This document shows, piece by piece, positions 8,601 to 9,216 of a stretch of 64,000 bases of DNA; the first letter of the stretch is position 1, and each line of letters opens with the position of its first letter. Where the stretch lies: the NCBI RefSeq assembly GCF_030463535.1, contig NC_132901.1:258621-322620 (forward strand). The letters are read 5' to 3'. The stretch comes from Salminus brasiliensis. Lineage: Eukaryota > Chordata > Actinopteri > Characiformes > Bryconidae. The position numbers and the translations under genes are program-made. Under the pieces are notes generated by a model, which was not told where the DNA came from, made no database searches, and saw only the letters and a list, made by a program, of their open reading frames with translations.

Positions 8601-9216
8601 TCATCTCTCGCAGTAAACTTAAGCACACATCAGATATCTTGGCTGATAGACTGAATATGGGATTAGAGATGAATCTTGCTGCTTTGATTTTTCACCAAAT
8701 AATAATCTGTGCATCTCACCTCAACAGATCTAAAGTAGCAACTGTAAATCTGGATGTTTTCCTCCAGCACTCTTTCTGAACTTGGTCAGATCACCTCAAA
8801 ATGACTTCATACTCACTGTTATTTGTCTTTAATCCTTTCAGGAGAGTCTGAGGCCGGCTTCATCGCTTTCAGAGTGTTTAACCATGAGAGGGCAGCCATG
8901 GCCATCTGCTCTGGACTCAGACCGACGGGCTGCAACACGGAGCACGTGAGTTATCAGGCTCATGTATTTGAGTTCATGCAGTCATGTATTCCTCACTCTG
9001 CTTCATACTCACTGTTCAGAGGTGGACAGTCAGTTTGGGAATATCTGTCCTAATGTGTTGCAGTACTGTATCGGGGGAGGAGGCCATTTCCCAGAAGCTG
9101 CACCTAGACAGTGTGGAGATTTCCCATCTTTTGACTGGGACGGTTACGGGACAAATGCCGGGTGGAGTGCCTCCAAAGAGATCACTGAAGCTGCTGTGCT
9201 CCTGTTCTACCGCTGA
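5661..9216 (+). CDS. itln: Intelectin A1 (X-type lectin), 7 coding exons, 330 aa
   Basis: Secreted calcium-dependent lectin; intelectins bind terminal 1,2-diols on microbial glycans. Coding exons: 5661-5736, 5940-6071, 6156-6403, 6585-6743, 8168-8288, 8842-8945, 9064-9216. All introns are GT-AG and the joined length is 993 nt in frame. Residues 1-25 form a hydrophobic signal peptide. Exon 2 encodes an unusual acidic stretch ([13 protein letters not shown]), then the RSCKEI-like start of the domain. Residues 70-152 hold the fibrinogen-like core ([28 protein letters not shown]). The C-terminus has CNTEH (276-280), GGGGHFPE (284-291), CGDF (297-300), FDW (303-305) and ends LLFYR. By alignment with human ITLN1 from memory, calcium/ligand residues N260, E262, H263, E274, D282 and W288 are kept. 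Position 243 is His260 here and Tyr297 is Trp314. Intron 4 is filled by a minisatellite. It converges on B1. Confidence 0.93.
6796..8060 (-). repeat. 59-bp minisatellite filling intron 4 of intelectin A1
   Basis: About 21 units of the same 59-bp repeat as at 1.9 kb, here in the opposite orientation on the plus strand. It starts about 50 bp after the exon 4 donor and ends about 100 bp before exon 5. In the sense of the gene, the orientation is the same as in intelectin C intron 4. The A2 counterpart has about 16 units. Confidence 0.93.

Follow-up and report, generated by a model that had tools for sequence, protein, structure and literature searches.

Intelectins (X-type lectins) bind sugars with vicinal diols in a calcium-dependent manner. 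Interlocus gene conversion is a known process in tandem multigene families. Among intelectins, it is thought likely for the recent copies of the mouse cluster, in which the polymorphisms T261S, H263A, and Y297F occur and the paralogues differ at "at least one" residue of the sugar site, according to the accessible part of PMC8324875. The same part of that source lists residues 243, 244, 260, 262, 263, 274, 288, and 297 as carbohydrate-binding, separately from ten calcium-binding residues. The structural calcium motif of intelectins is given as HENXXXGXCTXGD in the available portion of PMC9682848, where the direct ligands of the site-1 calcium of the lamprey lectin LSSL are named as E262, E281, E293, and D279, and N261 is termed not conserved. 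For a lungfish intelectin, docking gave a model with calcium held by Asn286 and Glu288 and with maltose in hydrophobic contact with Tyr269 and Glu270 (PMC11084424, accessible part). The available sections of a zebrafish paper (PMC6353920) do not touch on intelectin gene conversion.

The window analysed here is a stretch of 64,000 nucleotides from Salminus brasiliensis (G000:C28:258621-322620), taken from one assembly of one individual, and the genome searched comprised 1.07 Gb. Coordinates are window positions unless marked C28 or contig C1. The window contains two tandem blocks approximately 31-33 kb apart, each consisting of the intelectin genes A (plus strand), B (minus), and C (minus); a third copy of A (A3) and an additional gene, D, come after block 2, outside the window. 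Protein searches of the genome with exon 6 and exon 7 each returned at least nine intelectin loci, eight in the cluster and one on contig C1. The features are listed in Table 1. The A and C genes differ in the signal exons used (exons 1-2 of A1 occupy 5661-6071), and an acidic stretch of 13 residues in exon 2 of A1 and A2 is absent from the C1 exons read by eye.

Table 1. Intelectin genes and associated features of the cluster (window positions unless marked C28).
Feature	Position	Strand	Remark
Gene A1	5661..9216	+	predicted splice model, 7 exons, 330-aa open frame
A1 exons	5661-5736, 5940-6071, 6156-6403, 6585-6743, 8168-8288, 8842-8945, 9064-9216	+	predicted splice model
A1 intron-4 minisatellite	6789..8064	+	59-bp unit
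A intron 5 segment without C counterpart	8397..8712	+	left limit of cassette
A1 cassette copy	8711..9317	+	
A1 exon 6	8842-8945	+	FNHE; variant codon CAT 8883-8885
B1 exon 7	13546-13695		
B1 exon 6	14454..14557	-	FNRE; diverged gene between A1 and C1, outside shared cassette
Gene C1	25144..29314	-	exons 3-7 open; own short signal exon near 29314, read by eye
C1 cassette copy	25043..25639	-	
C1 exon 6	25415-25518	-	FNHE; His codon 25475-25477
C1 minisatellite	26123-28118		59-bp unit
Gene A2	38867..42131	+	predicted open frame over 7 exons, layout as A1
A2 minisatellite	39996-40979		59-bp unit
A2 cassette copy	41636..42232	+	
A2 exon 6	41757-41860	+	FNNE; Asn codon 41798-41800
B2 exon 7	46475-46624		
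Gene C2	56059..59510	-	exons 3-7 open
C2 cassette copy	55958..56554	-	
C2 exon 6	56330-56433	-	FNNE; Asn codon 56390-56392
C2 minisatellite	57038-58918		59-bp unit
Gene A3	C28 about 328349-331297		locus L013, outside window
A3 exon 6	C28:330923-331026		locus L013; FNNE, with GTHAGW (C-type last exon)
Gene D	C28 about 337080-340334		locus L014, outside window

Among solved structures, the A1 protein was closest to human intelectin-1 (ITLN1; 4wmq_A, residues 51-330 of A1, E 1.8e-128), and it matched Xenopus XEEL over residues 52-330 with an E-value of 2.3e-127; the similarity to intelectins (X-type lectins) extends over nearly the whole mature protein. The Pfam Fibrinogen_C profile scored 21.2 bits, slightly below its cut-off of 22, and the NCBIfam GGGWT domain scored 52.3 bits against a cut-off of 30. 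A Pfam search of the two exon fragments alone gave no match. The calcium motif HENXXXGXCTXGD is reproduced exactly in C1 and C2, and A1, A2, and A3 show one conservative departure from it, Ser for Thr.

From exon 3 to exon 5, the A and C genes are about 88-89% identical, minisatellite included, and over approximately 8711-9317 the identity reaches 99%. This cassette of about 600 bp comprises the right end of intron 5, exon 6, intron 6, exon 7, and the start of the 3' flank. No A/C alignment was obtained on the 5' side of exon 3, within a part of intron 5, or directly after the cassette; beyond the cassette, one 122-bp piece aligns at 80%. The right third of the intron 5 segment lacking in C (about 8602-8700) is an old dispersed repeat with about 25 other genome matches at 70-87%. 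Left of the cassette, A1 and C1 differ at 6/246 positions in exon 3, 51/152 in intron 3, 4/159 in exon 4, 7/121 in exon 5, and 20/103 in the left part of intron 5; within it, the differences are 0/121 in the right part of intron 5, 0/104 in exon 6, 0/118 in intron 6, 2/153 in exon 7, and 0/101 in the 3' flank. For non-coding DNA, the contrast is 0/340 in the cassette versus 71/255 in intron 3 and the left part of intron 5 (Fisher P 1.2e-29), the latter figure excluding intron 4, because its array is not alignable unit by unit, and possibly overstating the divergence of intron 3, which aligns poorly. Since the left part of intron 5 by itself differs at 20/103 positions, the contrast is independent of the hard-to-align intron 3. 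Between A2 and C2, 3/340 non-coding positions of the cassette differ (Fisher P 2.2e-25). The A/C comparison presents the pattern of interlocus conversion, namely a bounded tract of high identity, non-coding DNA included, within diverged paralogues.

Purifying selection was rejected as the cause of the cassette identity: the introns and the 3' flank match as closely as the exons, which selection at the protein level does not explain. An inversion by crossing-over between A and C was disfavoured and likewise rejected, as both flanks keep their gene identity between the blocks (98.9% for A1/A2 from -769 to +3465).

The third A copy is a mosaic of the two genes. Its left flank is 98.3% identical to that of A2, intron 3 is A-type (3/181 differences to A1, 53/152 to C1), exon 4 is A-type (0/159 versus 4/159), and exon 3 is marginally closer to A (7/246 versus 10/246). 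The left part of intron 5 is C-type (20/103 to A1, 0/106 to C1), and each of the five cassette segments is the same as in C2. Directly past the cassette, to about +756, A3 aligns with A and not with C, and a more distant piece of 128 bp is alignable to both genes, at 78% in the case of C. Overall, the 5' flank, exon 1, intron 3, exon 4, and the post-cassette flank are A-type, and the part from exon 5 to the cassette is C-type, with the A-to-C switch falling inside the minisatellite-bearing intron 4. The run test gave P 1e-4 for C1-A3, C2-A3, A1-A3, and A2-A3, but it was also positive for the orthologous pairs A1-A2 (P 2e-4) and C1-C2 (P 0.003); a low P alone is therefore no proof of conversion, and it is the segment counts on which the mosaic status of A3 rests. 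With a 36-bp gap in exon 5, a diverged exon 2, and no open frame from a trial splice, A3 may be non-functional. Taken together, the 3' cassette and the A3 mosaic strongly support sequence exchange between A and C at this locus.

The number of 59-bp units in the intron 4 array differs among the four A and C genes of the window, from about 17 to 34, and BLAST matches the A arrays to the C arrays in many registers, with a similarity of about 93-95%. As A3 switches from A to C within this intron, the minisatellite may promote exchange. Words shared by exactly two genes in intron 4 were found only for A1+A2 and C1+C2 at k 21-51; at these lengths, no word was exclusive to A1+C1 or A2+C2, and one A1+C2 word was detected at k 59. 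Within-block exchange is consequently not pervasive, and the result speaks against frequent exchange since the block duplication. A long satellite with 10/30-bp periods adjoins gene C in each block (21558-24184 and 52872-55079) and shows pronounced strand asymmetry, with a GC skew of -0.39 and -0.29 in the 4-kb bins holding most of it.

Within the cassette, the first-pass annotation had read the motif FN(H/N)E with His in A1 and C1 and Asn in A2 and C2, and this was borne out after all four exons had been located. The difference is a single base, C versus A at 8883, i.e., one transversion. Asn is present in A2, C2, A3, D, human ITLN1, and the lamprey lectin, and His in A1 and C1 only; the same position is occupied by Arg in B, Glu in the gene on contig C1, and Ser in XEEL. 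By parsimony, Asn is ancestral and the Asn-to-His change derived. A degenerate DNA pattern for FN(H/N)E had 18 matches genome-wide, five in the cluster and 13 elsewhere; eight of these 13 were inspected, and none of the eight read as an intelectin. The assumed orthology of A1 with A2 and of C1 with C2 is overwhelming outside the cassette, where 75 sites in 595 columns from exon 3 to the start of intron 4 and 26 sites in 283 columns around exon 5 separate the two A from the two C genes and none separates the blocks. Inside the cassette, it depends on one site, at which A1 and A2 have GTNAGW and C1, C2, and A3 have GTHAGW.

Asn243 of ITLN1 presumably contacts calcium, and the variant had been identified with this residue and called a ligand of the calcium. 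The identification was correct: a gapless alignment leads to position 236 of the 306-residue 4wmq chain, which is residue 243 of the 313-residue ITLN1 preproprotein (PMC8324875, available part). The ligand role was upheld in part, since residue 243 is listed there as carbohydrate-binding, but its lamprey counterpart is not among the ligands named in the accessible portion of PMC9682848. In our alignment, which carries an offset of one residue, E262, E281, E293, and D279 of LSSL, as named in that portion, correspond to 244, 262, 274, and 260, and N261 to 243; at D279, the counterpart of 260, the deposited lamprey chain carries Asn. Judging from the spacing in the available lungfish data, Tyr may also occur at 243 (Tyr269), if residue 286 equals 260.

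The sugar-site residues 243/244/260/262/263/274/288/297 read H,E,N,E,H,E,W,W in A1 and C1 and N,E,N,E,H,E,W,W in A2, C2, and A3. Residues 244-288 are retained in the A and C genes, 243 differs in A1 and C1, and 297 is Trp, as in XEEL. Of these eight positions, 243 takes the largest number of states in the sequences compared, namely five (His, Asn, Arg, Glu, and Ser), and 297 takes four (Trp, Tyr, Thr, and Ala). His243 is a plausible modifier of the sugar site that would slightly adjust selectivity or affinity, and calcium binding would most likely be kept, because the acidic residues E244, E262, and E274 are retained. The aromatic box at 288/297 occurs in three types at this one locus: W288 and W297 in A and C, A288 (with R243) in B, and W288 with T297 in D. 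Mouse Itln2 has A288 as well (PMC12800186, available part). The ninth intelectin locus, on contig C1 (G000:C1:40251589-40251929; L027/L035), has E243, H260, Y263, and A297 by alignment, and its sugar site is strongly altered.

Polymorphic sites were counted on gap-free columns of the five A/C copies (A1, A2, A3, C1, and C2). The cassette contains six such sites in 597 bases: three private to A2, one private to C1, the His/Asn site (A1C1|A2C2A3), and the GTN/GTH site (A1A2|C1C2A3). The His/Asn site at 8883 and the GTN/GTH site at 9154 together show all four combinations. Across 595 + 283 + 678 columns, the last including some flank beyond the cassette, one block-type and no cross-type site was found. 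With seven mutations on a five-tip star, a neutral simulation produced a block-type coincidence in 0.25% of the runs; the His/Asn pattern exceeds plain chance, yet it is one site. The same A-to-C transversion might have arisen separately in A1 and C1, perhaps under selection at the sugar site, and such parallel mutation agrees with the evidence being a single site, with the variability of this position in the family (His, Asn, Arg, and Glu in the genome, Ser in XEEL), with a non-synonymous change at two of the three coding sites that differ among the cassettes, and with the lack of any further block-type site in these columns or of within-block sharing in intron 4. However, it requires a transversion to have recurred against the low simulated frequency, and A and C are otherwise shown to have exchanged this stretch of DNA; we consider it unlikely. 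For a derived His in A1 and C1, a short conversion would be the simplest account, simpler than two identical transversions.

The GENECONV-style test that the first-pass annotation had proposed gave no significant run for A1-C1 (cassette, P 0.60; all segments, P 0.26) or for A2-C2 (P 0.34 and 0.17, respectively). A tract that is monomorphic across the copies escapes this test, and the outcome therefore does not contradict the Fisher contrast. It lends no support to a His-specific tract, and the latter is inferred, because the A1-C1 run with the His site was not significant. Of the proposed conversion between A and C within each block after duplication, the exchange between A and C is supported by the cassette and A3, a support that does not extend to its timing and its within-block course at the His site.

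Blocks 1 and 2 diverge by 0.46-0.68%, and the A and C cassettes differ to a similar degree, which agrees with either order of events. The cassettes of A1, C1, C2, and A3 have no non-coding differences, versus 3.1-4.6 events expected at block age (P 0.04-0.01), although this grouping without A2 was chosen post hoc and all five copies give P 0.45-0.18. The result is a hint that exchange may have been later than the block duplication. Alternatively, haplotypes with His in both A and C and with Asn in both could have existed before duplication and been joined in tandem by unequal crossing-over; conversion between A and C would still be needed, merely earlier. This fits the comparable divergence of cassettes and blocks, but it demands two block haplotypes in the population and sits somewhat poorly with the excess non-coding identity among the four cassettes grouped post hoc, and we hold it to be quite unlikely. 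That the two blocks are haplotypes of one block placed end to end in the assembly is very improbable despite a block divergence within the range of fish heterozygosity, given that the third A copy, with its A2-like left flank, follows block 2 on the same contig and that within-block A/C sharing would require exchange anyway.

The reading we prefer, cassette conversion plus a single origin of His copied between A1 and C1, is probable as a whole. In a tandem array of A-B-C twice, followed by A3 and D, interlocus gene conversion would hold the inverted 3' ends of A and C near-identical. The Asn-to-His change at 243 would have had a single origin, either in one of the genes A1 and C1 or in the haplotype becoming block 1, and would then have been copied between A and C in either direction by a tract covering 8883 and not the GTN/GTH site at 9154. 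One such tract is the best account, because other evidence shows that A and C have exchanged the cassette. As for the change private to C1 at 9075, it may postdate the tract or lie outside it.

At this locus, the sugar-binding exons of an immune lectin were copied between neighbouring genes and the 5' parts remained distinct, for which reason a gene tree built on complete coding sequences would be misleading. Should the two forms, His and Asn, differ in the glycans bound, conversion might be a quick route for bringing a change of specificity into two genes. That conversion gives each block matched lectins with their own glycan preference, His243 in block 1 and Asn243 in block 2, is a doubtful conjecture.

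With respect to described intelectins, ITLN1 (PDB 4WMQ/4WMY) and XEEL (4WN0) keep Glu244, Asn260, Glu262, Glu274, and Trp288, like the A and C genes. XEEL also shares Trp297, as well as Asn294 with A1 and A2, and has Ser243 where A1 and C1 have His. In contrast, ITLN1 has Tyr297 instead of Trp, His294 instead of the Asn of A1 and A2, and Asn243 instead of the His of A1 and C1. The mouse cluster is likewise an immune-lectin cluster with variable sugar-site residues, but no tract or mosaic is given in the accessible part of PMC8324875, unlike the A/C cassette and A3 described here. A literature search, with most subscription journals outside its coverage, yielded no account of a cassette of the A/C type for the intelectins of fish. 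The conversion process itself is ordinary: as in other tandem families, there is a homogenised 3' cassette including introns, a mosaic member, and partners in opposite orientation. There is no mechanistic difference from interlocus conversion in those families, and only the residue involved sets the present case apart.
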